Source: an uncultured bacterium (GTDB lineage Bacteria; Planctomycetota; J058). Taken from it: a stretch of 39,833 nt of DNA. Position 1 is the first letter of the stretch, and each line of letters opens with the position of its first letter. Location of the stretch: the NCBI GenBank assembly GCA_937911525.1, contig CALDQK010000409.1, positions 1-39,833 on the forward strand, written 5' to 3'. Under the pieces are notes generated by a model, which saw only the letters and a program-made list of their open reading frames with translations, did no database searches and was not told the origin of the DNA. Both the position numbers and the translations under genes were made by a program. This document shows, piece after piece, positions 20,718 through 37,322 of this stretch.

Positions 20718-21335
20718 ATGAAGCGATGGACGCTGGATCAGTTGGGAGAGGAGGTCGCCTGCGCCCTGGAGCGCGTCGACTACGTCCCTTCGGCCAGCGG
20801 TCGGGTGCGCGCGGTCCCGGACCGACGCACGATTCGCTACTACACGACGATTGGGTTGGTGGATCGCCCCAGCGAGATACGGGGCCGGACGGCCTACTAC
20901 GGGCGCCGGCACCTGCTTCAGCTGGTCGCGATCAAGCGGCTGCAGGCCGAGGGCCTCAGCCTCCGCCGGGTGCAGGAGCGCCTGGGTGGGTTGGACGACG
21001 CCGCGCTAGCGGAGCTCGCTCAGCTCCCGGCGGCCTCGGAGGCAGGCGAGGAGGCGGAGCGCGAACGCGCGCCCGCCCCTCCCCGCCCCCCGGAGCGCGA
21101 GGCCTTCTGGGCCGCTCGCCCTCCGGCGCCGGCGCCGGCCCCACCGAGAGAGCCGCAGCCGTCCGTAGAGGCGGCGTGGAGTTTGAAGCTGGGCGCAGAC
21201 GTGACGCTCCTCCTGCCGGGAGGTCACGAGCTCAGCGAGGCGGATCTGCGCGCGCTCCAGCGCGCTGCAGAGCCGCTGCTGCGCGAGCTGAGGCGGCAGG
21301 ACCGACTGCAAGACACCAACGGGGAGGATCTCTGA
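20718..21335 (+). CDS. MerR-like transcriptional regulator
   Basis: The ATG at 20718 gives 205 residues. The N-terminal domain is a winged helix of MerR type: WTLDQLGEEV, then RTIRYYTTIGLVDRP, GRTAYYGRRHLLQLVAIKRLQAEGLSLRRVQERL. About 20 extra residues (VDYVPSASGRVRAVPD) lie between the first helix and the recognition helix, which is not usual. A disordered Pro/Ala segment follows (about 120-160). The C-terminal module DVTLLLPGGHELSEADLRAL resembles a sensor or dimer cap of unknown ligand. Its stop overlaps the VIT/VWA start (TGATG at 21333). The palindrome upstream is its likely site. Confidence 0.82.
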   Translation: MKRWTLDQLGEEVACALERVDYVPSASGRVRAVPDRRTIRYYTTIGLVDRPSEIRGRTAYYGRRHLLQLVAIKRLQAEGLSLRRVQERLGGLDDAALAELAQLPAASEAGEEAERERAPAPPRPPEREAFWAARPPAPAPAPPREPQPSVEAAWSLKLGADVTLLLPGGHELSEADLRALQRAAEPLLRELRRQDRLQDTNGEDL

Positions 21336-23971
21336 TGACGACGATTACGCTCTTGGGCGCCGACGAGCTGGCGCGCGCCTTTCCGCCCGAGGCGGACGAT
21401 GAGTCCGGCCTGGGCGCGCTCTCGACCGAGCAGGGCAACCTCCCCCTCAAGCTGCTGGACGTCTCGGCCCGGATCACGGGCCTCGTGGCCGAGACCCGCG
21501 TCCGGCAGACCTTCGTCAACACGCTCGGCGTCCCGCTGGAGGCGACCTACATCTTCCCGCTCCCCTCGCGAGCCGCCGTCAGCCGCTTCCGCTTCGAGGT
21601 CAACGACCGCGTGATCGAGGGTGAGCTGCAGGAGCGCGGTCAAGCCCGCCGAGCCTACGACCAGGCGATCCAGACGGGTCACCGGGCGGCGATCGCCGAG
21701 GAGGAGCGCCCCGGGGTGTTCACCATGCGCGTGGGCAACCTGATGCCGGGCGAAGAGGCCACGGTCCACCTGACCCTCAGCGGTCCGCTCCCCTTCTCCG
21801 AGGGCGAGGCGACCTACCGCTTCCCCCTGGTCGTCGCCCCCCGCTATATCCCCGGCGCCGCGCTCCCCGGCTCCTCGGTCGGCCAGGGGACGGCCCTCGA
21901 CACCGACGCGGTCCCCGACGCCTCCCGGATCAGCCCCCCCGTTCTCCTGCCTGGGTTCCCCAACCCCGTCCGCCTCGGCATCGAGGTCGAGGTCGAGGGG
22001 ATCCCGCTCAGCTCGCTCCGCTCGAGCCTCCACGCCGTGCTGCTCGAGCAGACGGGCGAGCGGAAGGTCGTGCGGATCCAGCCGGGCGAGCGGCTCAACC
22101 GCGACTTCGTGCTTCGCCTCGGCCTCGCCGGCGACGCGATCCGCCAGGAGCTGGTGCTGCACCCCGACGCCTCGGGTGAGGAGGGCACCTTCCAGCTCAC
22201 GCTCCTCCCGCCCAAGGGACTCCCGGCCTCGAGCCAGCCGCGCGACGTGGTGTTCGTGCTCGACCGCTCGGGCAGCATGGGCGGCTGGAAGATGATCGCG
22301 GCCCGCCGCGCCTGCGCCCGCCTCCTCGACGCCCTGGACGAGCGCGACCGCTTCGCGGTCTTGGCCTTCGACAGCCGCGTCGAGCGGCCGACGACCCTGA
22401 GCAGCGAGGGCATGATCTCCGCCAGCGACCGCAATCGATTTCGCGCGGTCGAGTTCCTCTCTCAGGTCGAGGCCCGCGGCGGCACGGAGATGGCGGAGCC
22501 GATCCGTCAGGCGCTCGACGACCTCTTCGAGGCCGAGCGCGCCGGGCGTGAGCGGATCCTGATCCTGATCACGGACGGCCAGGTCGGCAACGAGGACCAG
22601 ATCCTGCGGGCCCACGGCGGTCGCTTGCAGAGCGTCCGCACGTTCACCTTGGGGATCGACCGGGCGGTCAACGAGGGCTTCTTGCAGCGCCTGGCGGAGC
22701 TCGGCGGCGGCGGCTGCGAGCTCGTCGAGAGCGAGTCCCGCCTGGACGAGGTCATGGACTCGATCCACCGGCGCATCGGCGCGCCCCTCTTGACCGATCT
22801 TCGCCTCGCGGGCGCACCTGGGCTGGAGCTCATTCCCGACACGCTGGCTCCCGCGCGCCTGCCGGACCTCTTCGCGGGCCAGCCCGTGCGGATCGCCGGC
22901 CGCTACCGCGGTCCGGGCGGTCCGCTCCAGGTCCGCGCCTTCTCCCCCAAGACGGGTATCTGGGCCGAGCAGCTCACTCCCCGCGAGAGCGAGAACCCGG
23001 CCCTGACCCGGGTCTGGGCTCGCGCCCAGGTCCGCGCGCTCGAGGACCGCTACGCGATCGAGGGGGGCAGCGCGCTCCCCGAGCAGATCGTGGCGCTCTC
23101 GCTCGCGCACCAGGTCATGTGCCGCTTCACCGCCTTCGTGGCCGTCGACCGGAGCGAGGTCGTCAACGAGGGTGGCGAGCAACACCACGTCACGCAGGCC
23201 GTCGAGCAGCCGGAGGGCTGGGAGAAGAGCGAGCTCCAGGCGGATCCCTTCGGGGCCGCCTCCCTCGTGCCCCACGTGGCCAGCGACCCCTTCGCTGCCC
23301 CGCCCAGCTCTGCCCCCAGCGGCTTCGCCTCGAGCGACCCCTTCGCGGCGAACGGAGGCGACCCCTTCGGCGGCGGCGATCCTTTCGCTGCCCCGGCCGC
23401 GGAAGCGTTCGGCGGCGGGCCCTTCGCCGCTCCGGCGGCGGACGCCTTCGCCCTGCCCTCCGACGCCGCCGGCGGAGGTTTCGGCGCCCCCGCTGGCCCG
23501 CCTCCGGCCCCGCGCGGAGCTCCACGTCGGAGCGGCAGCAAGAAGAAGGTCAAGGAGCGGGTGAAGCGCGAAGAGCGTCAGCAGCGCTCCCTCCTCGGCG
23601 AGCTCTTCGACAAGGTCAGCGGGCGTGACCGGCGTGAGCCGCCCCGTCCCTCCAAGCCCGCGCCTGCCGGCGACGACGCGCCGAGCCAGGTCGAGGCGAT
23701 CCGCCGCGCTTTGGCCAAGGACCCCAGCTACGCCGGCTTGCTGGCCTGCCTGGGGGAGGTCCGTCGCCTGATCGAGCGCCTCGAGCGCGAGGGCAGCGAC
23801 GACAAGCTCCTCGAGGGCCTCCGCGACCTGCGCGACGCCCTGACCGCGGCCCTGGGCCCGGGGGAGCCGCCTCTCGCCGAGGTCAGCCGTCTGGCCAGCG
23901 ACGCCGAGCAGAAGCTCGCCGCCCTGGCCAAGGAGCAGCCTCTCTCGCGCGGAGAGAGCTTCTGGTTCTGA
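21335..23971 (+). CDS. VIT and von Willebrand A domain protein with DPF repeats
   Basis: The ATG at 21335 has GGGGAGG upstream and overlaps the regulator stop, so expression is coupled. The 878-residue product has a VIT domain at about 25-150 (ARITGLVAETRVRQTFVN, EATYIFPLPSRAAVSRF). A VWA domain lies at about 300-480 with an intact MIDAS, DRSGSM (Asp310, Ser312, Ser314), and LITDGQVGNE. Residues about 635-710 carry five DPF motifs, three of them DPFAA or DPFGG, in Ala/Gly/Pro-rich sequence. A basic patch (RRSGSKKKVKERVKREERQQR) and a C-terminal helical region follow. No signal peptide is seen, unlike many VIT/VWA proteins. It is probably a metal-dependent adhesion or scaffold protein; the DPF segment looks like a multivalent peptide. 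Confidence 0.9.
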   Translation: MTTITLLGADELARAFPPEADDESGLGALSTEQGNLPLKLLDVSARITGLVAETRVRQTFVNTLGVPLEATYIFPLPSRAAVSRFRFEVNDRVIEGELQERGQARRAYDQAIQTGHRAAIAEEERPGVFTMRVGNLMPGEEATVHLTLSGPLPFSEGEATYRFPLVVAPRYIPGAALPGSSVGQGTALDTDAVPDASRISPPVLLPGFPNPVRLGIEVEVEGIPLSSLRSSLHAVLLEQTGERKVVRIQPGERLNRDFVLRLGLAGDAIRQELVLHPDASGEEGTFQLTLLPPKGLPASSQPRDVVFVLDRSGSMGGWKMIAARRACARLLDALDERDRFAVLAFDSRVERPTTLSSEGMISASDRNRFRAVEFLSQVEARGGTEMAEPIRQALDDLFEAERAGRERILILITDGQVGNEDQILRAHGGRLQSVRTFTLGIDRAVNEGFLQRLAELGGGGCELVESESRLDEVMDSIHRRIGAPLLTDLRLAGAPGLELIPDTLAPARLPDLFAGQPVRIAGRYRGPGGPLQVRAFSPKTGIWAEQLTPRESENPALTRVWARAQVRALEDRYAIEGGSALPEQIVALSLAHQVMCRFTAFVAVDRSEVVNEGGEQHHVTQAVEQPEGWEKSELQADPFGAASLVPHVASDPFAAPPSSAPSGFASSDPFAANGGDPFGGGDPFAAPAAEAFGGGPFAAPAADAFALPSDAAGGGFGAPAGPPPAPRGAPRRSGSKKKVKERVKREERQQRSLLGELFDKVSGRDRREPPRPSKPAPAGDDAPSQVEAIRRALAKDPSYAGLLACLGEVRRLIERLEREGSDDKLLEGLRDLRDALTAALGPGEPPLAEVSRLASDAEQKLAALAKEQPLSRGESFWF

Positions 23972-24243: not shown

Positions 24244-26451
24244 GTGCGTCGCGAAGACCCGCGGGATAGGCTGCTCGAGGTGACGATCGGCTTGGTCTAC
24301 AGCGGCTGCCGGGTCGAAGAGCGGCTCGGCCACGGCGCCATGGGTGACGTGTTCTTGGCCACCCGCGAACGCGACGGCGCGACCGTCGTCGTGAAGCTCC
24401 TCGATCGCGTCCTCGCCGCCGACAGCCACTACCGCGACCGCTTCGAGCGTGAAGCGCTGGCCCTGCTCAAGCTCCCCCCTCACCCCAACGTCGTGCCCGT
24501 CCTCGCGGTGGGAGCCGACCAGGCGGAGCCGCACCTGATCCTGGAGTGCGTGCCGGGACCCACCCTCGCCCAGAAGAGCCTCGGCGGCCCCCTGCCCTTG
24601 GAGGTCGCGCTCCGCTATGCGCGCGACGCCGCGCTGGGCCTCGCCTCGGCGCACGCCCACGGGCTGATCCACCGCGACGTCAAGCCCGCCAACATCCTCG
24701 TGGACGGCGAGCGCGACCTCGCGCGGGTCCTCGACTTCGGGCTCGCCAAGGACGTCTTCCTCAGCGGCGTCACGCAGCCCGGCCAGCTCGTCGGGACCGC
24801 CCCCTACATGTCGCCCGAGCAGTGGGAAGAAGACTCGGAGGAGGACGGGCGCATCGACGTGTTCGGCCTGGCCGTGACCCTCTACGAGCTGATCGCCGGC
24901 AAGCTCCCCTTCGACGCCCGCGAGCCCTTCGCGATCGCGGAGCTGATCCTCGCGGGCGACTACGAGCCGCTCGACGAGGTCGTCGACGACGCCGATCCAG
25001 CCGTGGCGCGCCTGCTCGACTGGGCCCTCGAGCCCGACCCCGAGCTGCGCCTGCCCCGCATGGACGTGTTCGCCGCCGACCTCAGCGCCCTGCTCGAAGG
25101 GCGCCCGACCCAGGTCCCCGCGCTCGTCGAGGTCGCGACCGGGAGACGCCACTACCTCGTCCGCCCCCTGCGCCTGCGCTGCGGCAGCAGCCCCAGCTGC
25201 GAAGTGGTGCTCGACGACACCGCCCCCCAGCACGCCGAGCTGGTCCGCGAGCCGGGCGCCTTCCTCGTCAGCGACCTCTGCTCCCCCCGCGGCACCTTCG
25301 TCGAGGACGAGCGCCTCCCCGAGGGGCGCCCGCGCCGGATCCAACACCAGGCCCGCCTCCGCTGCGGCGAGGTCGAGCTGCGCCTGCACCTCCCCGTCAC
25401 CCGCGCTCGCGCTGCCTTCCTCGACGACGTCGAGCGCCTCTCGCTCCCCGACCCGCTCCTCCGAGCGGCCCTCCCTGGCCCCCCTCGTCGCCTGCGCTCC
25501 TGGCTCCTCGAGCTCAGCGCCCCCTCGCTCCCCGAGCAGGCCTACACGCGCGCCGCCCTGGCCGCGCTGCTCGGCGCAGAGACCGCCGCGGCCGCGGAGC
25601 AGCGCGTGCTCGCCCGCCTCGAACCCCTGCGACAAGCCGCCCGCGAGCGCTGCGCGACCTGGGGCGGAGAGACCTGGCGCGCCTGGGCTCAGGCCTGGGT
25701 CCAGGAGTGGCGAGAAGCCGGGCCGCAGCTCGGTCCGAGCCCGAGCGTCGCCTGGGTCCTGCACGCCTCTCACCAAGGCCGCCAGCTCGCTCAGCGCTCC
25801 CTGGCCGGCGAGGGCCTCCTCCTCGTGGGGCGCGACGAGAAGTGCCACCTCCGCCTGCCGCGCAAGGACATCTCCCGCCGGCACGCCACCCTGCTCCGCC
25901 TCCACCGCGGCTGGCTCCTCGTCAACGAAGGCCGCCAGAGCGCGACCGTCGCGGGCCGCCCGCTCAGCTCCCCCCTGTGGCTCGAGCCCGAGACCCCCGT
26001 GTCCCTCGGAGCCGTCGAGCTCTGCCTGCGCCCCAGCGCAGAGCCTCGGCTGCAGCGCGCCGGCGTCGGCCTCTTCGCCCTCGACCCGGACTGGTTCTGG
26101 GCCCTGGCAGGCCTCGGCCACCCCGCCGTCGCGACGGGCCTGGTCGGCCTCCTTCACGAGCCGCGCCACCTCGCTTGGCTCGAGCCGGCGGCGCGGACCC
26201 TGCACCCCGAGGCCCCCGAGGCCGTCGAGACCCTCCGCCGCGCGGTGGGCTCGGACCTCGCGGAGAAGGTCGCCGGCGCGCGCTCCGTCCTGACCGTGCT
26301 CCTCGGCGCCGACCCAGGCGACGACCTCGCCGCCTGGGGAGACCTCCTCGCCCGCCGCCGGGGAGAGCTCGGCCCGCAGGTCCTCCCCCAAGGCTGGCTC
26401 CGCGCGACCCGCCGCAGCAGCACGACCACGCGCCTCAGCCCGCCCGCCTGA
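24244..26451 (+). CDS. Ser/Thr protein kinase with two FHA domains
   Basis: The product has 735 residues. The Hanks-type kinase domain spans about 20-285: glycine loop GHGAMGDV, Lys51, HRDVKPANIL with Asp145, DFGLA with Asp164, and SPEQ. FHA 1 is at about 300-380 (GSSPSCEVVLDD, ending in CSPRGTFVEDERL). FHA 2 is at about 515-600 (GRDEKCHLRLPRKDISRRHA). A helical segment separates them and another 130 residues close the protein. There is no membrane segment. The start is uncertain: GTG at 24244 lacks a ribosome site; GTG at 24280 is an alternative. Two FHA domains on one kinase suggest binding of its own or another kinase's phosphothreonines. It converges on the 26462 kinase with 10 bases between stops. 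Confidence 0.88.
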   Translation: MRREDPRDRLLEVTIGLVYSGCRVEERLGHGAMGDVFLATRERDGATVVVKLLDRVLAADSHYRDRFEREALALLKLPPHPNVVPVLAVGADQAEPHLILECVPGPTLAQKSLGGPLPLEVALRYARDAALGLASAHAHGLIHRDVKPANILVDGERDLARVLDFGLAKDVFLSGVTQPGQLVGTAPYMSPEQWEEDSEEDGRIDVFGLAVTLYELIAGKLPFDAREPFAIAELILAGDYEPLDEVVDDADPAVARLLDWALEPDPELRLPRMDVFAADLSALLEGRPTQVPALVEVATGRRHYLVRPLRLRCGSSPSCEVVLDDTAPQHAELVREPGAFLVSDLCSPRGTFVEDERLPEGRPRRIQHQARLRCGEVELRLHLPVTRARAAFLDDVERLSLPDPLLRAALPGPPRRLRSWLLELSAPSLPEQAYTRAALAALLGAETAAAAEQRVLARLEPLRQAARERCATWGGETWRAWAQAWVQEWREAGPQLGPSPSVAWVLHASHQGRQLAQRSLAGEGLLLVGRDEKCHLRLPRKDISRRHATLLRLHRGWLLVNEGRQSATVAGRPLSSPLWLEPETPVSLGAVELCLRPSAEPRLQRAGVGLFALDPDWFWALAGLGHPAVATGLVGLLHEPRHLAWLEPAARTLHPEAPEAVETLRRAVGSDLAEKVAGARSVLTVLLGADPGDDLAAWGDLLARRRGELGPQVLPQGWLRATRRSSTTTRLSPPA

Positions 26452-26461
26452 GCCCCGAGCC

Positions 26462-28381
26462 TCAGTCCTCGCCGAAGGCCCGCTTCATGAGGTCGGGGTC
26501 GTCGCGGACCAGGAGCCGGATCAGACGCACGGCCCGCCCGCCCTCGAGCCGCTGCCCCTTGCTCTCCAGGTTCCGGGCCAGGAAGCCCAGCATGCGCGCC
26601 ATGAGCTCCGGCCGCGTGCCAGGCCGCAGGCGCCGCGCCGGGACCGGCCGCCCCCGGAAGCGGGCCTCGCTGAAGCGGGCGAGGGTCTGCACGCTCCCCG
26701 CGAAGGCGTCCACGATCAGGGGCGGCTCCCCCGGCGTGCGCGCGAGGAACTGGCCGGGGAAACACACGCCCTGGAGCTCGACGCCGAGCCTGCGCCCGAG
26801 CGCGATCGCCAAGAGCGAGCAGGTGAAGTGGATCCCCTCGCGGCGATCGAGCACGCAGTGCAGGCAGCTCGTGAAGGGAGAGTAGTAGGCCTCGCGCGTC
26901 CCGGTCGCGACCTCGGCTCGGAACCAGCCGACGAAGGCGCGCAGGCGCGCCTCGCCCTCGAGCCCTGCCAGGACCGGGGCCCGCGCGGCCAGCTCGTCGA
27001 GGCGACGCAGCTCCCGCGCGAGGTCCAGCGTCCCCCCGTGCAGCACGTAGTCCGCGGCGAGCAAGGCCAGCTCCTCGAGTTCGCCCTCCGGCAGCCATGT
27101 CTGCCAGAGAATGCGCCGCACGCGGGGATCCTCGTCCCACTCCTCGAGCTGCTCGGGGCCGACCTCGCCGCCCAGCTCCCGGGCGCGTCGATAGTCGGCC
27201 CAGCCACGCGCTGGCTCGCCGAGCTGCAGCGCCGCCTGGGCCCGCAGCGCGTAGGCGCGCGGATCCCGCGGGCGCGCCGCCAGCGCCTCGTCCGCCGCGT
27301 CCCGCGCCTCGCGCCAGCGCCGCGCCTGACGCGCGGCCTCGGCCCGGGCGAGCGCCGCCGCGCCAGGCTCGGGAGCGGCAGCGCTCGCGCTCGCGCTCGG
27401 GCTCGGGCTGGGTCGCGGCGAGGCCGAGGCCGACGCCGACGCCGACGGAGCAGGCTCTGCTCCGGGCTGCGCGTAGAGGTAGCCGAGCAGGAAGAGCAGC
27501 AGGACGATCACCCCAGCCAAGGCAGGACCGACCCGCGCCAGCGAAGCGCGCTCGGCCCGCGCTTCCCACGCGAGCAAGGCCTCGCGCAGCTCGGCCGCGC
27601 TGGCGTAGCGCGCGCTCGGCTCCTTCTCCAAGCAGCGCAGGCAGATCGCCTCGAGCCCGCTGTCGAGGTCCGCCCGCAGCGTCCGCGGAGAAGGCGCCGG
27701 CTCACCGACGACCTGCTCCAGGACCTCCAGGGTCGTCGCTCCGCCGAAAGGCCCCTGGCCCGTGAGCAGGAAGAAGAGCGTCGCGCCCAGCCCGTAGACG
27801 TCGGTCGCGGGGCTGAAGTCGCGCCGCAGCCCCAGCGCCTGCTCGGGAGCCATGTAGAGCGGCGTGCCGAGCAGGTCGCCGGTCTGGGTCAAGCGCTCGG
27901 TCGGGGTCAGCGAGCTCGCGAGCCCGAAGTCGGTCAGGCGAGCCTCGCCGCGTTCGTCGATCAACACGTTGCCGGGCTTGACGTCCCGGTGCAGGACGCC
28001 GGCCCGGTGCGCCGCCTCCAGCGCGTCCGCCAGGCCGACGCAGAGCTCGACCGCGTCGCGCTCCGGCAGCGGACCGCCGCGGTAGACGAGCTTCTGCAGG
28101 TCCTCGCCCCGGATCCAGGGGGTGACCAGGAAGGGACCCTGGGGCGCGACGCCCGCCTCGATCAAGGGCACCAGGTTGGGGTGCTTGAGCAGCGCGGTGA
28201 TCCGCGCCTCATTGTGGAAGCGAACCAGGGACTCGTCGTCGGTCGCTTGCTCGCGCAGGAGCTTGATCGCGACCTCGTTCCCGCCCCGGTCCTCCCCCAG
28301 GAACACCACGCCCTGGCCGCCGCGCGCCAGCTCGCGCAGGACCCTGTAGCGACCGATCCGCTGTGAGGGGGAGGGCTTCAC
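26462..28381 (-). CDS. Membrane Ser/Thr kinase fused to TPR-like and SirB1/transglutaminase-like domains
   Basis: The product has 639 residues. The kinase domain (about 12-275) is complete: GGQGVVFLG, Lys40, HRDVKPGN with Asp133, DFGLA with Asp151, APEQ. One membrane helix is at about 285-305. A Ser/Ala/Pro low-complexity linker follows, then a TPR-like region (about 340-405). The C-terminal 150 residues match the SirB1 / Transglut_core2 pattern: LDRREGIHFTCSLLAIALGRRLGVELQGV, PGQFLAR, then LIVDAFAGS. In SirB1 proteins the second motif is normally PGHF; His is replaced by Gln here, so catalysis may be lost. By topology the SirB1-like part is outside and the kinase inside, a receptor-like layout. 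It is last in the 33226-26462 run. Confidence 0.88.
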   Translation of the reverse strand: MKPSPSQRIGRYRVLRELARGGQGVVFLGEDRGGNEVAIKLLREQATDDESLVRFHNEARITALLKHPNLVPLIEAGVAPQGPFLVTPWIRGEDLQKLVYRGGPLPERDAVELCVGLADALEAAHRAGVLHRDVKPGNVLIDERGEARLTDFGLASSLTPTERLTQTGDLLGTPLYMAPEQALGLRRDFSPATDVYGLGATLFFLLTGQGPFGGATTLEVLEQVVGEPAPSPRTLRADLDSGLEAICLRCLEKEPSARYASAAELREALLAWEARAERASLARVGPALAGVIVLLLFLLGYLYAQPGAEPAPSASASASASPRPSPSPSASASAAAPEPGAAALARAEAARQARRWREARDAADEALAARPRDPRAYALRAQAALQLGEPARGWADYRRARELGGEVGPEQLEEWDEDPRVRRILWQTWLPEGELEELALLAADYVLHGGTLDLARELRRLDELAARAPVLAGLEGEARLRAFVGWFRAEVATGTREAYYSPFTSCLHCVLDRREGIHFTCSLLAIALGRRLGVELQGVCFPGQFLARTPGEPPLIVDAFAGSVQTLARFSEARFRGRPVPARRLRPGTRPELMARMLGFLARNLESKGQRLEGGRAVRLIRLLVRDDPDLMKRAFGED

Positions 28382-28411
28382 CCCTTCAAGCTACTCCTTC
28401 GCGCCTCGCCC

Positions 28412-28862
28412 TCAGCGCTCGAGGCGCTCGAGGGGAATCCAGAGCGGGTTGCGCCCGAACCACGCGGCCAAGTGCCCTCGCGCTTCCTTGTCCCCGTAGC
28501 GGACGAGGCGCTGGCCCGGCAGGACCAAGCCAACCGGCTGCCCCACGTCCTCGCCCCAGGGGCTCACCCGCAGACGCACCAGCTCGCCCGCCCCGCCCTT
28601 GGCCACTCGCACGAGCCTCGAGCACCAGGAAGGGGCGCGCTCCCTGCTGCCCCGCCTCGAGCAGGCGGACGACGTGCGGGTGGCTGACCTTGGCCAGGGC
28701 GCGGACCTCGCGCTCGAAGCGGGTCCGCTGCCGCTCGCTGGGGTCGTTCAAGAGCTTGAGCGCGGCCTCGGCGCCGGTCTCGGGGATCCGCACCCGGTAG
28801 ACGGCGCCGGCCGCGCCGCGGCCGAGGCTGCCCAGGACCTCGAAGCGGCCGATCCGCTCCAC
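28412..28862 (-). pseudogene. Broken Ser/Thr kinase, N-lobe only
   Basis: The frame from the GTG at 28862 encodes a good kinase N-lobe: RIGRFEVLGSLGRGAAGAVYR, a Lys in AALKLL, HPHVVRLLEAG, PFLVLE. After about residue 83 that frame turns into Arg/Gly/Ala-rich nonsense. A second frame then reads well to a TGA at 28412 (LVRLRVSPWGEDVGQPVGLV, YGDKEARGHLAAWF). The catalytic HRD, DFG and APE parts are missing. An internal deletion plus frameshift near 28612-28625 best explains this. It could also be a sequencing error combined with an unusual short gene. Its start abuts the TPR gene stop (TAG-GTG), so it was part of the operon. Confidence 0.65.
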
Positions 28863-29990
28863 CTACTTGCCGAACTTGTCTTGCACGCCCTCCAGCGAGT
28901 TCACCGCGTCGCCCTCCCCCTCGAGCTCGGCGCGAACCTCGGCGATCCGCGGGTAGTCCGGGGCGAGCTCCTCGGCCTCGTCCAGGGCCGCGGCCGCCTC
29001 CTCGCCCCTCCCCAGGGCCGCCAGCGCGCGGGCTGCGCCGAGCGCGTAGTCGGGGTCCTCGGGGTCGAGCGCGCGGCCCGCTGAGAAGTGGCTCAGGGCC
29101 GCGCTCGGGTCGCCGCCCAGCTCGAGCACGCCCAGGTTGTAGTGGGCGGCCGCGGCGTCGTCGCCCTGGTCGAGCTCGATCACGCGCGAGAGGTCGGCCC
29201 GGGCGGCCGCCTCGTCACCCGCCATGCGGTGCAGGGCTGAGCGGGTCATGAGCGCCATGCACATGTCGGGGTCGAGCTCGAGGGCCCGCCCGACCTCGTT
29301 CAGCGCCTCCTGGATCCCCTCGGGCCCGACGGCGCCGTAGTTGATGCACTGGCTGAGGATCTCGCCGACCCAGGCGTGGCCGCGCGGGTCCTCGGGGTAG
29401 GCCAGCGCGTGAGTCTGGGCGATCTGCCCGGCCGTGTCGGCGCGCCCGTGCTCGAGCAAGGGGCGCAGCAGCTCGAGCAAGAGCGGGTGCCCCGGGACCT
29501 GCGCCAGGGCGTCCTCGCAGGTCTCCACCAGCTCCTCGACCTCCCCGTTCATGCCGAGGAAGGCGGCCCGCCGGCAGAGGACCCCGAGCGCCAGGTAGAG
29601 CTGCTCCTCGTCGTCCAGCTCGCTGACCGGCTCGAAGCCCTCGACCTCGCTCCACCAGCCGGTCTCGACCGCCTCGCCCTGGCAGCGCGCCACGAGGTCC
29701 CGCCCGCGCCCCTCGTGGTAGCCGTGGTAGTCCGAGCCGACGTATTCGCCCGGCTGCTCGCACTCCTCGCAGAGGGGCTCCTCGCCCTGGCCCACCGAGG
29801 CCACGACCTCCTGGGCGAACACCACGAACTCCGGCAGGTTGCCGTAGTGCGAGTCGGGGATCACGTTCAGCGCGCCCGGCAGCTCGCTCGAGCAGCCCGG
29901 GCAGCGCCAGTGCTCGACCACGAGGTCGAAGCTCGAGGCTCCGTATTCGTCGGTCATGCCGGTGCGATAGGGGTGAAGGGGATGGCGCAC
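28863..29990 (-). CDS. Zinc-binding, TPR repeat protein
   Basis: The product has about 375 residues. The start is either the GTG at 29990, with GAGG five bases upstream, or the ATG at 29957, which has no ribosome site; I prefer the first. The N-terminal 90 residues hold HWRCPGC and PLCEEC, two CxxC pairs of a zinc ribbon. The rest is helical TPR repeats, clearest in HYNLGVLELGGDPSAALSHFS, DYALGAARALAALGRGEEAAA and the EELAPDYPRIAEVRAEL end. There is no signal peptide. It is likely a cytoplasmic adaptor that links partners of the neighbouring kinases. It lies two bases after the M64 peptidase gene and directly before the broken kinase. Confidence 0.85.
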   Translation of the reverse strand: MRHPLHPYRTGMTDEYGASSFDLVVEHWRCPGCSSELPGALNVIPDSHYGNLPEFVVFAQEVVASVGQGEEPLCEECEQPGEYVGSDYHGYHEGRGRDLVARCQGEAVETGWWSEVEGFEPVSELDDEEQLYLALGVLCRRAAFLGMNGEVEELVETCEDALAQVPGHPLLLELLRPLLEHGRADTAGQIAQTHALAYPEDPRGHAWVGEILSQCINYGAVGPEGIQEALNEVGRALELDPDMCMALMTRSALHRMAGDEAAARADLSRVIELDQGDDAAAAHYNLGVLELGGDPSAALSHFSAGRALDPEDPDYALGAARALAALGRGEEAAAALDEAEELAPDYPRIAEVRAELEGEGDAVNSLEGVQDKFGK

Positions 29991-29992
29991 GT

Positions 29993-32900
29993 TCACCTCG
30001 GGGGGACGGTCAGGATCCAGCGATGCGTCTGGGTCAGCTCGGCGCGGTGCTCGTCGCGGACCCACGGAGTCGGGTCCCACACCTCGGCCGAGATCTCGTA
30101 GCGGCCGGGGTCCAGCTTGCGCGGGAGCACCTTTATGTAGTGGACGAAGCGGCCCTCGATCACCTGGAGCTTGCCCGAGACGTCCTGGGTCGCCGGGCCC
30201 GCGTCCTTGGGTGGCATGGGCCCGCGCTCGCGCGTCTCGTCCTCGTCCTGCCCCTCCCCGGCGCCCGTCTCGGGGCGCTTCCACTCGAGGCGCTTGCGCC
30301 GCCAGTGGACGAAGAGCGGGTGGTTGGTCGGCTTCATGACCAGGACCCGGAAGGTGATCGGCTCGCGCCCGGCGCTGAGCTCGGTCTCAGCGGGCCAGGT
30401 CTGGTCGATCGGCTTCACGATCCGATAGAGCCCGCGGACCATGACCTCCATGCACACCGCGCAGAAGGGCGAGCCCACGTCGCGCATGACGCACTGGCGC
30501 TGCGGTCGCCAGTAGCCCTTGGGCTGGCGGTTCGCGCCCTCGAAGGCGCCGATCGGCTTGCCCGTCCAGTTCTTCTCGCCGCTCGGGTCGAGCCAGGCCT
30601 GCCAGGGCGCGGCGCCCTCGGCCCCCTTGCGCGTCGGCGCCGCGACCACGTTGACCCGGACCGCCCGCGGCGCGCCCGTGTAGGGGGTGGGCGGCCCCGC
30701 GTTGGGCGTCGGCTCCTGGTCGTATTCGTCCGCCAGCCCGCCGAAGGCGTGCCCGATCTCGTGGGGCGTCGCCTCGAGCATCGTCTTGCACACCGCGACC
30801 GTGCCCCCGCCGCCCGTCGCCACGCTGGCGTGGTCGTTGCCGAGCACCACTGCCAGCCGGTCGTGCTCGCCGGGGAAGAGCCGGTCCAGCAGCCCGAACA
30901 CCCGCCCGCGGTCGCCGACGGTGTGGACCCCGCCGTTGACCTCGCTCCCGAGCACGGTCTCCTTGCGCTGGCCGTCCCGCGTCAGCCCCTCGTCCTTGGA
31001 CTCGAGGTTCAGCGCCCAGTAGTTGATGTACTGGTCGTATTCCTTGAAGAAGTCCTGCAGCTGGCAGAACTTCGCCGCGCTGTCGGCGTGGCGGTCGAAC
31101 TGGAGCTGCTTCTTGTCGTCGAACACGTAGCCGTCGCCGAGGAAGTAGATATCCAGCCGGTTCTTGGGCGGCCCGTTGCGCCCCAGCTCCTTGCTCAGCC
31201 GAAGGTCGCGCCGCCGCAAGAGCGGGCTCTCGAGCCGCGCCTTGGCCTCGTCGCCGACCCCCGGCACGTCGGCGTGGCGCTCGGCCAGCTTGGCCAGGGC
31301 CGCGCGGCCCGCCTGGTAGTGCCCCTGGTCCATGAAGGCCAGCACCTTGGCGAGCACCCGCCGCAGGCGCGCCGCGTCGTCCTCCTCGCGCGCCTGCTGA
31401 GCCAGGGCCCGCGCCGCCTCGCGCGCCTCGCGCCGCTCCTGGCGGATCTCGTCCCGGCGCGCAGGCGAGACCAGCTGGCCCTCGAACACGACGAAGCCGC
31501 CCTCGGGCACCGGCACGCCGGTCACGAGGCTGTAGAGCGACCAGGCCTCGCCCTGGCTGCGCTTTCGCCCCGCCCAGGGCAGGAGCAGGCTCACGCCGCG
31601 CTCGTCCAGGCCGGTGCGGAAGGCGTGGAAAGCCTTGGCCAGGGTCAGCTCGAGGTCGTCCGGCCGGACCTCGGCGAAGAGCTCCTGCAGCTGGCTGGGC
31701 GCGAAGCGCGTCCAGGGCCAGGTCAGCTCCCCCGCCGACTCGCCCGGCGCCGCCGCTGTCTTCAGCTGCGCCTCGCGCCCGGCGCTCCCGACCAGGCGCA
31801 CGACCAGGTTCCCCGGCAGGGTGCAGCTCGGCCGCCGCTCGCGCGGGAGCTGGGGGTCCTTCGCCGCCGCCAGGGTCGCCTGGAAGAGCGCCTGCAGCCC
31901 GCGCAGCCGGTGCCGCAGCCAATGGGCCCGCAGGCGCTGCTCCTCGTCGAGGGGCAGGCGCAAGAGCGCGTCCGCGTGCCGCCAGGCCAGCTCGTAGTCC
32001 TGGCGCAGGGCCGCGTTGACCAGGTCCTGCTCGAGGGTGAAGGCCTCGCCGCTGCGCTGCGCCAGGACCGGCCCGCGGCGGGCGGCGGCCTGGGCCGCCT
32101 CCTCCTCCAGGCCGGCCACCAGCTGATCCAGCTCGCCGTCGACCCCCAGGCCGCGCAGGCGCGGGCTCGCCTCGAGCACCGCCACGATCGCCTGGACCGG
32201 CGAGAGCCGCGCCGCGACCTCGCGGGCGTGCGCGCTCAGCTCGGCGAAGGCCTCCTTGGCGACCTCGGCCAGCTTGGCCTGCTCCAGGGTCGCCCGGCGC
32301 GCCTGCGGGCTGCCCGGCAACAGGGCGCCGACCAGCTCGAGCACGGCGCTGGCGCGGGCCGGCTCCTTGGCCGCGACCAGGCGCTCGGCCTCCTTGAGCA
32401 TCGCGTCCACCACGGCGCTCAGGGCGCGGGGGGCCTCGCTCCGGGCCGGCGCCGCGCGCAGCCGCTCCGCGAAGAAGCGCGCGTCGCCGGCGCGCGGGTC
32501 GTCGGGGTAGGCGGCGGCGAAGGCCTCCAGCGCAGCCCCCAGGCCCGTCGGGGCGCTCTCGCGCACCGCCTGCCAGGCCCCGTCCGCCGCGCGCGTCGCG
32601 GCCGGCGGGGCGGGGGCCTCGCTGGTCGAGGGGCGCGCCGGCTGCTCGCGCCCCGCCACGGGCGAAGGCTCGGCGCTGGGGGCGCGCCGCGAGATCACCC
32701 AGGCGACCGTGCCCAGGGCGACGAGCCCGCAGAGAGCGAACACCGCGCGCCGGAAGAGCTGCTCTTGCCGCTTCCGCGCCAGGAAGGCCTCGGTCGCGGC
32801 CCGCGGATCGCGCCGCTCGGGCTCGGCGCTCGCCTCCTCGGCGCTCTCCTCCGCCGAGGAGGAGGCAGCCGCGGGGGCCGGAGGCTCAGGCTTGGCCCGC

Positions 32901-33226
32901 TCTCGCTTGCGCGGGGCCTCGGCCGCGGGCGGCTGAGCCGCCTGGAACACGAGCACCACCTCGCCCACGCTGACCTCGTCGCCAGGGCTCAACTCGGCCA
33001 GCCCCTCGACCCGCGCCCCGTTGAGCTGGGTCCCGGCCTTGGTCGAGGAGTGGTTCTCCAGGCGCACCTGGTCGCCCTCGACGCTGAGCGTGCAGTGGTG
33101 CCGCGAAACGCCGGGGCCCCCCAGGACGAGGTCGCAGTCAGCCGTGCGACCGATCCGCAGGGTGAGGCCAGGCTCGAGCGGGACGCGCCGCGTCTCGCCC
33201 ACGCCCTCGTAGAGCTCGAGGAACAT
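29993..33226 (-). CDS. FHA domain - membrane helix - M64-family metallopeptidase fusion
   Basis: The ATG at 33226 gives 1077 residues; the open frame extends upstream but reads poorly. FHA lies at about 23-95 (LTLRIGRTADCDLVLGGPGV, then SRHH). A charged linker and one membrane helix at 161-179 follow, so the FHA domain is cytoplasmic and the rest outside. Residues 200-650 are long, mostly helical. The peptidase domain (about 660-1000) begins LDIYFLGDGYVFDD and holds HEIGHAFGGLADEY with His822, Glu823 and His826, the zincin HExxH in the M64 form. FCAVCMEVMVRGLY then precedes a beta-rich C-terminal region. An FHA sensor joined to a surface M64 peptidase is not an arrangement I know. It leads the operon. 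Confidence 0.9.
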   Translation of the reverse strand: MFLELYEGVGETRRVPLEPGLTLRIGRTADCDLVLGGPGVSRHHCTLSVEGDQVRLENHSSTKAGTQLNGARVEGLAELSPGDEVSVGEVVLVFQAAQPPAAEAPRKRERAKPEPPAPAAASSSAEESAEEASAEPERRDPRAATEAFLARKRQEQLFRRAVFALCGLVALGTVAWVISRRAPSAEPSPVAGREQPARPSTSEAPAPPAATRAADGAWQAVRESAPTGLGAALEAFAAAYPDDPRAGDARFFAERLRAAPARSEAPRALSAVVDAMLKEAERLVAAKEPARASAVLELVGALLPGSPQARRATLEQAKLAEVAKEAFAELSAHAREVAARLSPVQAIVAVLEASPRLRGLGVDGELDQLVAGLEEEAAQAAARRGPVLAQRSGEAFTLEQDLVNAALRQDYELAWRHADALLRLPLDEEQRLRAHWLRHRLRGLQALFQATLAAAKDPQLPRERRPSCTLPGNLVVRLVGSAGREAQLKTAAAPGESAGELTWPWTRFAPSQLQELFAEVRPDDLELTLAKAFHAFRTGLDERGVSLLLPWAGRKRSQGEAWSLYSLVTGVPVPEGGFVVFEGQLVSPARRDEIRQERREAREAARALAQQAREEDDAARLRRVLAKVLAFMDQGHYQAGRAALAKLAERHADVPGVGDEAKARLESPLLRRRDLRLSKELGRNGPPKNRLDIYFLGDGYVFDDKKQLQFDRHADSAAKFCQLQDFFKEYDQYINYWALNLESKDEGLTRDGQRKETVLGSEVNGGVHTVGDRGRVFGLLDRLFPGEHDRLAVVLGNDHASVATGGGGTVAVCKTMLEATPHEIGHAFGGLADEYDQEPTPNAGPPTPYTGAPRAVRVNVVAAPTRKGAEGAAPWQAWLDPSGEKNWTGKPIGAFEGANRQPKGYWRPQRQCVMRDVGSPFCAVCMEVMVRGLYRIVKPIDQTWPAETELSAGREPITFRVLVMKPTNHPLFVHWRRKRLEWKRPETGAGEGQDEDETRERGPMPPKDAGPATQDVSGKLQVIEGRFVHYIKVLPRKLDPGRYEISAEVWDPTPWVRDEHRAELTQTHRWILTVPPR

Positions 33227-33371: not shown

Positions 33372-35030
33372 TTGGGCATCGAGTTCTCGAACCTCTACGA
33401 CGGCGACGACGACCAGAGCGAGGAGCGCCCCGCTCGGACCGCGCGCCCACGCAACGACGGCAAGCGACGTCGGCGCAGCATCTATGAAGCCGCCCTGGGC
33501 GGCCTCCACCGCGACGACCTCGACGAGGAAGAGGTCGACGAGCGCCCGCGCCGCAAGCGGAAGCGCAGCCGGAAGCGCAGCGAGCGGCGCAAGGAGGGCA
33601 AAGCCGTCGAGCGCAAGCGCGAGTCAGCGCGCTTGGCCGAGGCCCGCGCCAGCGCCGAGGAGATCCCCGAGGACGGGGACTTCGGCGGCGAGTTCCAGAA
33701 GTTCGACCTCTCGCCCCAGCTGCTCAAGGCGATCCACGACATGGGCTGGTCGACCCCCTCGCCGATCCAGGACCTCGTGATCCCGATCGTGCTCTCGGGC
33801 AACGACGTGGTCGGGCAGGCCCGGACCGGCACGGGCAAGACCGGCGCCTTCTCGATCCCGCTGATCGAGCTGCTGCGCGACCGCGAGCTCGAGCCCGGCC
33901 GCCTCCCGGCTGCCGTGATCCTCAGCCCGACCCGCGAGCTCGCGCTCCAGATCTACCGCCAGATCGAGCAGCTCAGCGCCTACTCCGGCCTGCGCTGCGT
34001 GCCCGTCTACGGCGGCGCGCCCATGGAGCCGCAGCTCCGCGCCATGCGCAACGGCGCTGACGTGGTCGTCGGCACGCCGGGGCGCGTCATGGACCACATT
34101 CGCCGGCGCACGCTCCGCCTCGACGAGGTCCGCTTCTTCATCCTCGACGAGGCCGACCGCATGTTCGACCTCGGCTTCCGGGACGACATCTACTGGGTCT
34201 CGCGGCGCCTCCCCGAAGACGGCCGCCAGACGCTGCTCCTCTCGGCGACCATGCCCGACGAGGTCCTGCGCCTGAGCAAGCAGGTCACCGACGATCCGGA
34301 GCTGATCTACACCTCGCAGAAGGGCGAGGAGCGGATGACCGTCAAGACGGTCGAGCAGTTCGTCATCTCGGTCGACCCCGAGCGCAAGATGGGCCTGCTC
34401 ACGCACCTCCTCAAGGACGAGGACCCCGAGAAGGGGATCGTGTTCACGCGCACCAAGCGCGGCGCGGACAAGGTCACCGAGCGCCTGCGCAAGGCTGGCC
34501 TCGACGCGGGCCCGATCCACAGCGACCTCAATCAGCGCAAGCGCGAGCAGATCCTGCGCAAGTTCCGCGAGGGCAACCTCGACCTCCTGATCGCGACGGA
34601 CGTCGCGGCTCGCGGCCTCGACATTCAAGGCGTGACGCACGTCGTGAACTTCGACGTGCCCGAGAACGCCGAGGACTACGTGCACCGCGTGGGGCGGACG
34701 GCGCGCATGGGCCAGACCGGCCGCGCCTTCACCTTCATTACGCCCAACGACGGCAGCTTCCTCACCGAGATCGAGAAGCTGATCAACCTCCAGGTGCCGA
34801 CCTACGAGGTCGAGGGCTACCGCACCCAGGCCAACGAGGAGGAGCGCGCGCGCCGACGCGAGCGCGAGGGCGGGCGCACCAGCCAGCACCCCATGGCCAA
34901 GCAGCTCTCGCCGGCGCTGCTCGACATCCTCAACCGCAGCGCCCGCGGACGCGGGGGCAAGGGCGGCGGACGCGGCCCGGGCAAGGGCGGCGGCCGCAAG
35001 GGCCGCGGCCGGGGCGGCCGGGGCCGCTGA
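33372..35030 (+). CDS. DEAD-box RNA helicase
   Basis: The TTG at 33372 is chosen because the promoter at 33313-33341 lies inside any longer frame. The 552-residue product has an N-terminal ~110-residue acidic/basic extension (DDLDEEEVDERPRRKRKRSR). The helicase core follows: Q motif FDLSPQLLKAIHDMGWSTPSPIQ, ARTGTGKT, PTRELA, TPGR, DEAD, SAT, then VFTRTKRGAD, ARGLDI and HRVGRTARMG. The tail is Gly/Arg/Lys-rich (RGRGGKGGGRGPGKGGGRKG), an RNA-binding RGG-like end. It should remodel RNA in ribosome assembly or mRNA turnover. It is divergent from the M64 gene. Confidence 0.93.
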   Translation: MGIEFSNLYDGDDDQSEERPARTARPRNDGKRRRRSIYEAALGGLHRDDLDEEEVDERPRRKRKRSRKRSERRKEGKAVERKRESARLAEARASAEEIPEDGDFGGEFQKFDLSPQLLKAIHDMGWSTPSPIQDLVIPIVLSGNDVVGQARTGTGKTGAFSIPLIELLRDRELEPGRLPAAVILSPTRELALQIYRQIEQLSAYSGLRCVPVYGGAPMEPQLRAMRNGADVVVGTPGRVMDHIRRRTLRLDEVRFFILDEADRMFDLGFRDDIYWVSRRLPEDGRQTLLLSATMPDEVLRLSKQVTDDPELIYTSQKGEERMTVKTVEQFVISVDPERKMGLLTHLLKDEDPEKGIVFTRTKRGADKVTERLRKAGLDAGPIHSDLNQRKREQILRKFREGNLDLLIATDVAARGLDIQGVTHVVNFDVPENAEDYVHRVGRTARMGQTGRAFTFITPNDGSFLTEIEKLINLQVPTYEVEGYRTQANEEERARRREREGGRTSQHPMAKQLSPALLDILNRSARGRGGKGGGRGPGKGGGRKGRGRGGRGR

Positions 35031-35034
35031 GCGA

Positions 35035-35835
35035 GTGGGGGCGCTGAGCGACCCGGCGGGCTGCGCCGATTCGGTCACGATCGCGATCCCCAACTGGAAC
35101 ACGGGATCGCTGCTGCGCCTGTGCCTGGCGAGCCTGGTGCGCTTCACCAAGCACCCCCACCGGATCCTGGTCGTCGACAACGACTCCGACGACGCCTCGC
35201 GCGTCACCGTCGACGGAGCGGCCGAGCGGGGCCTGATCGACCTGATCCAGCGGGAGGGCGCGGTCCACGACGGGGCCCCGGAGCACGGCGCCTCGCTGGA
35301 CGCGGCCCTCGCCGCCTGCGAGACGCCCTACCTGCTGACCCTCGACAGCGACGCCTGGGTGCGCCGCGAGGGCTGGCTGGCCGACTTCGTGGCGGCCCTC
35401 GGCGACGAGGCCAGCCACGCCGGCGCGCTCAAGTTCCCTGGCGGGCGCGCCAAGCGCTTCGTGCAGTGGGTGCGCCGGGAGCCCCCTCGCCCCGAGGCCA
35501 GCTACGTCCGTCCCTGCCACGCGATCTACCGAGTGGAGCTGCTGCGCCGCTACGGGCTGAGCTTCGCCCCGCGGCTCGGCTCCGACGAGCAGTGGCGCAC
35601 CACGGGCCAGACGATCCACGAGGAGCTGGTCGCCAAGGGGCACCAAGCTGCTCTGATCCCCCACGCCGAGATCGAGCGCCTGGTCGGCCACCTGCGCCAC
35701 GCCACCTTCGTGATCAACTTCGACGCCTTCCCGACCCTCAAGGCGCGCGCGCGCCGCAAGGGGGAGCGCCAGATCAAGGACCTCCTCGAGAGCCGCGAAG
35801 CGCGCGGGATCCTGGCCGAGACCCCGGTCCCCTGA
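35035..35835 (+). CDS. Family 2 glycosyltransferase, soluble
   Basis: The 266-residue product opens with VTIAIPNWNTGSLLRLCLASL, then ILVVDNDSDDAS and, after a stretch of helix, LLTLDSDAWVRREGW (the DxD-type site). The rest is a GT-A fold with no membrane segment. The GTG start lies five bases after the helicase stop, so the two are cotranscribed. The acceptor and donor are unknown; rhamnosyl- or galactosyl-type relatives share this outline. Confidence 0.85.
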   Translation: MGALSDPAGCADSVTIAIPNWNTGSLLRLCLASLVRFTKHPHRILVVDNDSDDASRVTVDGAAERGLIDLIQREGAVHDGAPEHGASLDAALAACETPYLLTLDSDAWVRREGWLADFVAALGDEASHAGALKFPGGRAKRFVQWVRREPPRPEASYVRPCHAIYRVELLRRYGLSFAPRLGSDEQWRTTGQTIHEELVAKGHQAALIPHAEIERLVGHLRHATFVINFDAFPTLKARARRKGERQIKDLLESREARGILAETPVP

Positions 35836-35896
35836 GCTGGCCGGAAAGCCTATTCCAGCCACCACTTAGCGCAATCTGCTGATAGACTCCTCGCCC

Positions 35897-35914
35897 CGCA
35901 GCCGAGGGGCTGCG
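35897..35914 (+). promoter_or_regulatory. Hairpin beside the efp ribosome site
   Basis: CGCAGCC (35897-35903) pairs with GGCTGCG (35908-35914), ending two bases before the perfect AGGAGG (35917-35922) of efp. It may tune translation or mark a short leader. A possible -10, TAGACT (35883-35888), lies upstream, without a clear -35. Confidence 0.35.
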
Positions 35915-35927
35915 CTAGGAGGTCCAA

Positions 35928-36500
35928 ATGGCTGGCATTCCCGTAGCTCAGGTGCGCAAGGGCCAGGTGGTCAAGATCGATGGGCAAGCCTTCAAGGTGC
36001 TCGATCACCACCTGAACACCCCTGGCAACAAGGGCGGAATCGTCACCTTCAAGCTCAAGAACGTGGAGACGGGCGCCAACATCTCCAAGCGCTACAACTC
36101 CAACAGCAACATCGAGACGCTCTGGGCCTCCAAGCGCACCTGCCAGTACCTCTACGAAGAGGGCAACGGCTGGGTGTTCATGGACAACGAGACCTTCGAG
36201 CAGTTCACCCTCGACAAGGACCTCGTCGGCGAGGTCATGCCCTATATCCCCTACAACGCCGAGGTCCAGGTCCTCTATGTGGAGGAGAAGCCGGTCGACA
36301 TCGAGCTCTCGGCCTCGGTCGTGCTCGAGGTCACCGAGGCCGAGCCCGCGATCCGCGGCGACACCGCGACCAACGTCACCAAGCGCGTCGTGTGCGAGAC
36401 GGGGCTCGAGGTCAAGGCGCCTCAGCACATCAACGTGGGCGACAAGATCCAGGTCGACACCCGCAGCGGCGACTTCCTCGGCCGCTACAAGGGCGACTAG
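35928..36500 (+). CDS. efp: Elongation factor P, Asn at the loop tip
   Basis: EF-P relieves ribosome stalling at polyproline. The 190-residue product has all three domains, the length of normal EF-P, and a perfect AGGAGG seven bases from the ATG. Domain I holds LNTPGNKGGIVTFKLKN. The residue at the tip of the peptidyl-transferase loop, Lys34 in E. coli, is Asn34 here, with Lys35 next. That rules out simple EpmA-type lysylation at position 34. The C-terminal domain ends VDTRSGDFLGRYKGD. It has its own leader after the glycosyltransferase gene. Confidence 0.95.
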   Translation: MAGIPVAQVRKGQVVKIDGQAFKVLDHHLNTPGNKGGIVTFKLKNVETGANISKRYNSNSNIETLWASKRTCQYLYEEGNGWVFMDNETFEQFTLDKDLVGEVMPYIPYNAEVQVLYVEEKPVDIELSASVVLEVTEAEPAIRGDTATNVTKRVVCETGLEVKAPQHINVGDKIQVDTRSGDFLGRYKGD

Positions 36501-36528
36501 GGACACCCCCTATTCCGCGCGCGGCGGA

Positions 36529-36534
36529 TATAAA
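36529..36534 (+). promoter_or_regulatory. Possible -10 box before the FHA-DUF4388 gene
   Basis: TATAAA stands out in GC-rich sequence 24 bases before the ATG at 36558. The -35 region is not recognisable. Confidence 0.3.
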
Positions 36535-36557
36535 GAAAGCCAAGACGTCGGGGGACG

Positions 36558-37322
36558 ATGAGTCAGGATGAGCGCCGCTGCGTGATTCACAGCCTGGAGT
36601 TCGGGGATTTCGATCTCCGACCTGGGCAGAGTCTGCGGATCGGCCGCCACCGCGACAACGACATCGTGCTCGAGGACGCCATGGTGTCGCGCTTCCACGC
36701 GCGGATCACCTGGGACCCTTCGATCGAGCGCCCGGTGATCTTCGACAACGGCAGCCAGAACGGCACGACCGTCGACGAGCAGCCCGTCGGCGCGGCCGAG
36801 CCCCTGCGCAACAAGGCCAAGATCGGCGTCGGGCCCTTCATCTTGCGCATCCAGCTCCTCGGCTGCGGCGAGACCCCCGCGATCCTGCGCGAGACCGACG
36901 ACTTCGTGACCCTCTTCTCGGACGACATGCCGGACCTCTCCGGCCTGCTCGGACCTGGGATCCTCAGCTCGCGCGAGCTCTTCGAGCGCCTCGAGAGCGA
37001 GCGGCGCACGGGCACCCTCGAGTTCACCTTCGACCCCAACAAGTCCAAGGGCGACAAGGGCCGCGGCAAGGTCGTCTACTGCCTGGGCCGGATCATGACC
37101 GCCGACGTCCCCGGCTACGGCAGCTCGCTGCGCGCGCTCGAGCACCTGCTCAACCTCCGGCGCGCGGAGTACCGCTTCACCCGAGAGCTCGAGCCCCAGG
37201 AGGACTCGCTCAACATGTGGTTCTCCGACTTCCTGCGCGCGCGCGAGCGCACCGACGAGGAGACCACCCAGCGCTTCAAGCCGACCAAGCGCATCCCCCG
37301 CCCCGACCCTGGGGCGCGGTAG
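36558..37322 (+). CDS. FHA domain protein with DUF4388-like C-terminus
   Basis: The product has 254 residues. The FHA domain (about 10-105) is well formed: LRIGRHRDNDIVLEDAMVSRFHARI, then NGSQNGTTVDEQPV. Residues about 130-230 resemble DUF4388 (PatA/GspE-N-like): SSRELFERLESERRTGTLEF, GRGKVVYCLGRIMTADV, ALEHLLNLRRAEYRFTREL. Such modules occur in gliding and signalling proteins and may bind other regulators. The tail is basic. It is soluble, so it could receive signals from any of the window's kinases. Its stop abuts the tatC stop (TAGCTA, convergent). Confidence 0.88.
   Translation: MSQDERRCVIHSLEFGDFDLRPGQSLRIGRHRDNDIVLEDAMVSRFHARITWDPSIERPVIFDNGSQNGTTVDEQPVGAAEPLRNKAKIGVGPFILRIQLLGCGETPAILRETDDFVTLFSDDMPDLSGLLGPGILSSRELFERLESERRTGTLEFTFDPNKSKGDKGRGKVVYCLGRIMTADVPGYGSSLRALEHLLNLRRAEYRFTRELEPQEDSLNMWFSDFLRARERTDEETTQRFKPTKRIPRPDPGAR

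Follow-up and report, generated by a model that had tools for sequence, protein, structure and literature searches.

A planctomycete family of predicted membrane metallopeptidases combining a cytosolic FHA domain with a periplasmic M64 domain

Phosphothreonine-guided recruitment is, on balance, the reading that we favour for P0005, a 1077-residue protein of an uncultured planctomycete that we assign to a family of bitopic membrane metallopeptidases in this phylum; the kinases encoded alongside it do not appear to be its dedicated partners. Each domain of P0005 is already known and their combination is a new variant. The family is recognised by its domain order, by the conservation of its putative phosphate-reading and zinc sites and by its recurrence, all read directly from sequence. 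Judged by genome comparison, this is a real protein family, and the four-gene signalling module proposed around it by a first-pass annotation is not supported.

A compact five-gene locus

The locus lies on contig C409 of a 10.2 Mb Planctomycetota metagenome-assembled genome (MAG) of 1342 contigs. The window, that is the whole stretch of DNA analysed, comprises 39,833 nucleotides and contains these five genes:

24244-26451, plus strand: P0001, soluble Hanks kinase with two FHA domains (ORF, Pfam)
26462-28381, minus strand: P0002, kinase-TM-TPR-Transglut_core2 protein (ORF, Pfam)
28386-28862, minus strand: P0003, kinase N-lobe fragment with an out-of-frame tail (ORF, Pfam)
28863-29996, minus strand: P0004, Zn/TPR protein with two CxxC pairs and TPR repeats (ORF, Pfam, sequence)
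29993-33226, minus strand: P0005, FHA-TM-M64 membrane metallopeptidase, 1077 aa (ORF, Pfam)

The first-pass annotation had described a double-FHA kinase converging on four closely spaced minus-strand genes, and this description holds: all five ORFs are present, Pfam agrees with the domains named, and the minus-strand genes are separated by overlaps or gaps of a few bp. P0005 and P0004 overlap by 4 bp, if P0004 starts at the GTG at 29996, the P0004 stop is followed by the P0003 start with no spacer, P0002 starts 4 bp beyond P0003, and the convergent P0001 and P0002 are 10 bp apart. With such overlaps and short gaps, co-transcription of the minus-strand run is plausible in the source genome. This operon-like run was met only there.

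P0001 matches Pfam Pkinase at 1.3e-38 and FHA in two stretches, while P0002 matches Pkinase (6.1e-43), TPR and the SirB1-type domain Transglut_core2 (3.5e-20) and has a single TM helix at residues 284-302; both contain all of the Hanks motifs VxxK, HRDxKxxN and DFG. Planctomycete kinases typically have TM regions in 70-80% of cases, and TPRs are among their commonest accessory domains (PMC11032199). The general design of P0002 is therefore ordinary and corresponds to a very common planctomycete type, membrane Hanks kinases whose periplasmic part has TPR/WD40 domains (PMC11032199), beyond which it carries the C-terminal Transglut_core2. Its best relative (G002:C891, 650 aa) has the same kinase-TM-TPR-transglutaminase order. 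P0003 had been called a broken kinase, correctly so: the Pfam kinase match is limited to the N-lobe (residues 7-85, 8.3e-11), and HRD and DFG are absent from the sequence, which thus lacks part of the Hanks motif set. The truncation may be a real deletion or a short-read assembly error of the MAG, as either fits. After the truncated kinase, an out-of-frame stretch with coding-like codon use (window 28412-28606) may be the remaining end of a gene that was otherwise deleted, or a junction created by the assembly; it has no relative among the loci retrieved from related genomes. P0004 has Pfam TPRs and visible CPGC and CEEC pairs, and it is best described as a neighbour of the FHA-M64 gene and at most a candidate functional partner.

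Directly upstream of P0001 lies a gene for a VIT-VWA protein (window 21335-23971). Two more FHA proteins are encoded in the window (1486-3240 and 36582-37322), in neither of which Pfam shows a kinase domain. The second belongs to a block of DEAD-box helicase, glycosyltransferase, EF-P-like and small FHA genes at 33372-37322, which is partly retained in two related genomes (G001 and G004) with altered order and strand; in both, FHA-M64 is on another contig than the block.

FHA domain, membrane helix and peptidase domain of P0005

From the N-terminus, P0005 consists of an FHA fold, one TM helix, a helical middle part and an M64 domain with an intact zinc motif:

32936-33217, minus strand: FHA domain, residues 4-97 (Pfam, alignment, structure model, Foldseek)
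32690-32746, minus strand: single TM helix, residues 161-179 (hydropathy 2.21)
30422-31192, minus strand: M64 (igalysin) catalytic domain, residues 679-935 (Pfam, homology, M64 tree)
30728-30763, minus strand: zinc motif HEIGHAFGGLAD, residues 822-833, fitting HEXXHXXXGXXD (alignment; motif from PMC12402451)
30452-30493, minus strand: structural-zinc residues C912, C922 and C925, with E834 (invariant in nine members; site from PMC12402451)

Both terminal domains are well above their Pfam cut-offs (FHA, 1.3e-14, 54.7 bits against 20.7; Peptidase_M64, PF09471, 3.9e-19, 69.4 bits against 26). The phosphothreonine-site residues Arg, Ser, His and Asn are complete in P0005 (4/4; G26 R27, S41, H44, N69). 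In an alignment of nine FHA-M64 members, a small set drawn mostly from draft assemblies, G26, R27 and H44 occur in 9/9, S41 in 8/9 and N69 in most, and the M64 residues H822, E823, H826, D833, E834, C912, C922 and C925 are likewise found in all nine. Linker and TM sequence drift among the same members, and the TM helix is weaker by hydropathy in the G001 and G010 homologues than in P0005. With the linker and TM so variable, the retention of the key FHA residues points to selection acting on that domain. Since P0005 keeps both the FHA phospho-site and the M64 zinc site, it is reasonable to think of a cytosolic reader coupled to an extracytoplasmic peptidase; this part of the earlier proposal stands, while its extension to a phospho-signalling module of the neighbouring genes does not.

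The structure model of P0005 has a mean pLDDT of 47.8, with the M64 domain not folded and only the FHA and helical parts usable. Its N-terminus is nearest to phosphothreonine-binding FHA structures, FhaA first and including the FhaA-Rv3910 complex, and a Foldseek match at 3e-7 is to an FHA domain whose structure was determined for its phosphothreonine-dependent binding. The mycobacterial envelope FHA proteins nearest in fold, FhaA with Rv3910/MviN and the FHA-bearing ABC transporter Rv1747, place a cytosolic phosphothreonine reader on membrane or envelope machinery, as proposed here for P0005, but unlike P0005 they have no peptidase. Known kinase partners exist for these mycobacterial proteins.

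The FHA domain might instead have a purely structural role at the inner membrane, in scaffolding or oligomerisation, as in SctD/YscD proteins, and do no phospho-reading. P0005 shares an N-terminal FHA-like domain, a single TM helix and a large periplasmic part with SctD/YscD and GltG-type proteins, which have structural or motility roles and, unlike P0005, no peptidase; moreover, Pfam Yop-YscD_cpl is also above cut-off (57.8 bits) and TIGR02500 matches weakly. However, this TIGR02500 match (35.4 bits against a cut-off of 86) does not place P0005 among the SctD/YscD proteins, and the top NCBIfam match is FhaB, although under its cut-off, as the P0005 FHA domain is for the other NCBIfam models. 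Together with the invariant R27 and H44, the near-invariant S41 (8/9) and the phosphothreonine-binding FHA domains as best fold matches, this makes a purely structural role unlikely in our judgement.

On the peptidase side, P0005 is homologous at about 1e-9 to the M64 igalysins (Thomasclavelia ramosa IgAse, Bacteroides BF3526; PDB 4df9, 3p1v), with which it has in common HEXXHXXXGXXD and the structural-zinc residues, three Cys and one Glu. It thereby matches the M64 signature and second zinc site described for the family (PMC12402451, PMC12237041). The characterised igalysins are exported and have no cytosolic domain, whereas P0005 adds an N-terminal FHA domain and a TM helix. Clusters confined to Planctomycetota are named in a survey of the M64 family, whose main text contains neither the word FHA nor the word kinase (PMC12402451). 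No paper describing the FHA-M64 architecture was found in the literature searched, which takes in few subscription journals, and searches there on M64 in planctomycetes likewise gave nothing relevant.

The surface location given to the M64 domain by the first-pass annotation goes further than the sequence, which leads only to the outside of the inner membrane. Planctomycetes have a periplasm, and a protein held in the inner membrane by a single TM helix would place its M64 domain there, not necessarily at the surface. The suggested phosphorylation of the juxtamembrane region also finds no backing, as the linker sequence differs among members, most of which have only one or two Thr, at positions that do not align. 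GarA-like self-docking via a phosphorylated juxtamembrane Thr was considered and rejected, since no threonine is conserved in the linker.

Another possibility is that the M64 domain does general scavenging or housekeeping proteolysis in the periplasm and that the fused FHA domain serves as a neutral anchor. M64 proteins that stand alone, without FHA, coexist in the genomes that carry FHA-M64, and one M64 copy without detectable FHA (G009) groups inside the FHA clade of the M64 tree. The retention of the key FHA residues against the drifting linker and TM speaks against a neutral role, and we regard it as improbable. The tree needs two changes of the FHA label and fits one gain plus a loss or two gains; a single origin of the fusion was thus not accepted as settled.

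Other membrane M64 proteins were also seen. One of 1560 aa (G030:C123, L122:6621-11303) has a long, different N-terminal region, a TM helix and an intact M64 domain. Another (G007:C603, L044:5295-9629) joins a Hanks kinase, a TM helix and M64 in one protein of 1444 aa. Its zinc motif is degenerate, with HEVGS in place of HExxH, so that the M64 domain is probably inactive and the protein possibly a pseudo-peptidase fused to a kinase.

Recurrence of the fusion and its neighbourhoods

A search for the fusion across genomes had been set beforehand as the test of whether its neighbours recur with it. The fusion does recur: with the family alignment it was matched in 8/12 genomes of the class, some copies being split by a frameshift or gap, and a phylum-level search with the alignment, covering 59 genomes, found it also in two genomes of the distant planctomycete family f20 (G053 and G026). 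One copy (G003:C212, L040:8240-11523) is split over two frames, by a frameshift or a draft-assembly error, either being possible; in G004 the gene is uninterrupted. The other genes have homologues at scattered positions, and no shared set of neighbours recurs beside FHA-M64 among the homologue loci compared. A kinase gene lies upstream in G008 and overlaps FHA-M64 by 4 bp; in G003 and G004 an O-methyltransferase-like gene precedes FHA-M64 and the kinase is two genes off and divergent; in G001 two opposite-strand genes separate it from the nearest kinase. No kinase is near FHA-M64 within the stretch read in G009, G010 and G011, nor beside it in the neighbourhoods read in the two f20 genomes, where the adjoining genes look, by eye, like those of a metal ABC transporter and a MinD-like ATPase.

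These neighbourhoods have to be seen against a high background of kinases, of which at least about 100 per genome are found in 10/12 class genomes. In 400 kb samples of few contigs each, processed with a purpose-made gene caller and thus giving estimates, kinase genes amount to 37.5 per Mb in G004 and 80 per Mb in G008, and 15% and 43% of non-kinase genes, respectively, have a kinase within two genes. At this density a kinase near FHA-M64 in 3/8 lineages is unremarkable (binomial P about 0.11-0.74), and adjacency does not exceed the genome background. Moreover, kinases adjoining FHA-M64 are generally not mutual best relatives, each being at least as similar to unrelated kinases as to the others. 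Thus, as far as genome comparison detects, the kinases beside P0005 are not dedicated partners.

A conserved module, in which P0001 and P0002 phosphorylate a partner read by the P0005 FHA domain, with a sensory role for the P0002 outer domain and an adaptor role for P0004, could draw on the tight same-strand run in the window, on the kinases near FHA-M64 in G008 (overlapping) and in G003/G004 (divergent), and on the kinase-TM-M64 fusion in G007, but we consider it very unlikely given the differing neighbour sets, the non-orthologous and statistically expected kinases, the full-length P0004 relatives, which occur only in G003/G004 and there on contigs unrelated to FHA-M64, and the best P0002 relative, whose genome yielded no FHA-M64 in the family-alignment search. 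As a conserved system the module thus appears largely refuted. In some lineages a genuine link to kinases may nevertheless exist, given the kinase gene that overlaps FHA-M64 in G008 and the fusion of kinase and M64 in G007.

A possible route from cytosolic phosphorylation to periplasmic proteolysis

For the favoured reading of P0005 as a recruited membrane peptidase, we infer phospho-binding, topology and proteolytic activity, as well as recruitment itself, from domains and sites. A Hanks kinase of the cell would phosphorylate a threonine on an inner-membrane or cytosolic protein, and the cytosolic FHA domain of P0005 would dock on that phosphothreonine. Past the one TM helix, the helical spacer and the predicted active M64 domain would lie in the periplasm, and docking might concentrate, place or gate the peptidase beside its substrate. 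More tentatively, and with the odds rather against it, FHA-TM-M64 proteins could represent a new class of phospho-regulated transmembrane proteases in which cytosolic Thr phosphorylation controls periplasmic proteolysis; the G007 protein, in which a kinase replaces the reader and M64 is degenerate, would then hint at a wider phospho-linked family of membrane M64 proteins.

P0005 is a defined and testable protein, with putative phosphate-reading and catalytic sites on opposite sides of the membrane. Planctomycetota have many kinases and few known outputs. If the FHA domain gates the peptidase, there would be a direct path from cytosolic Hanks signalling to proteolysis in the periplasm.
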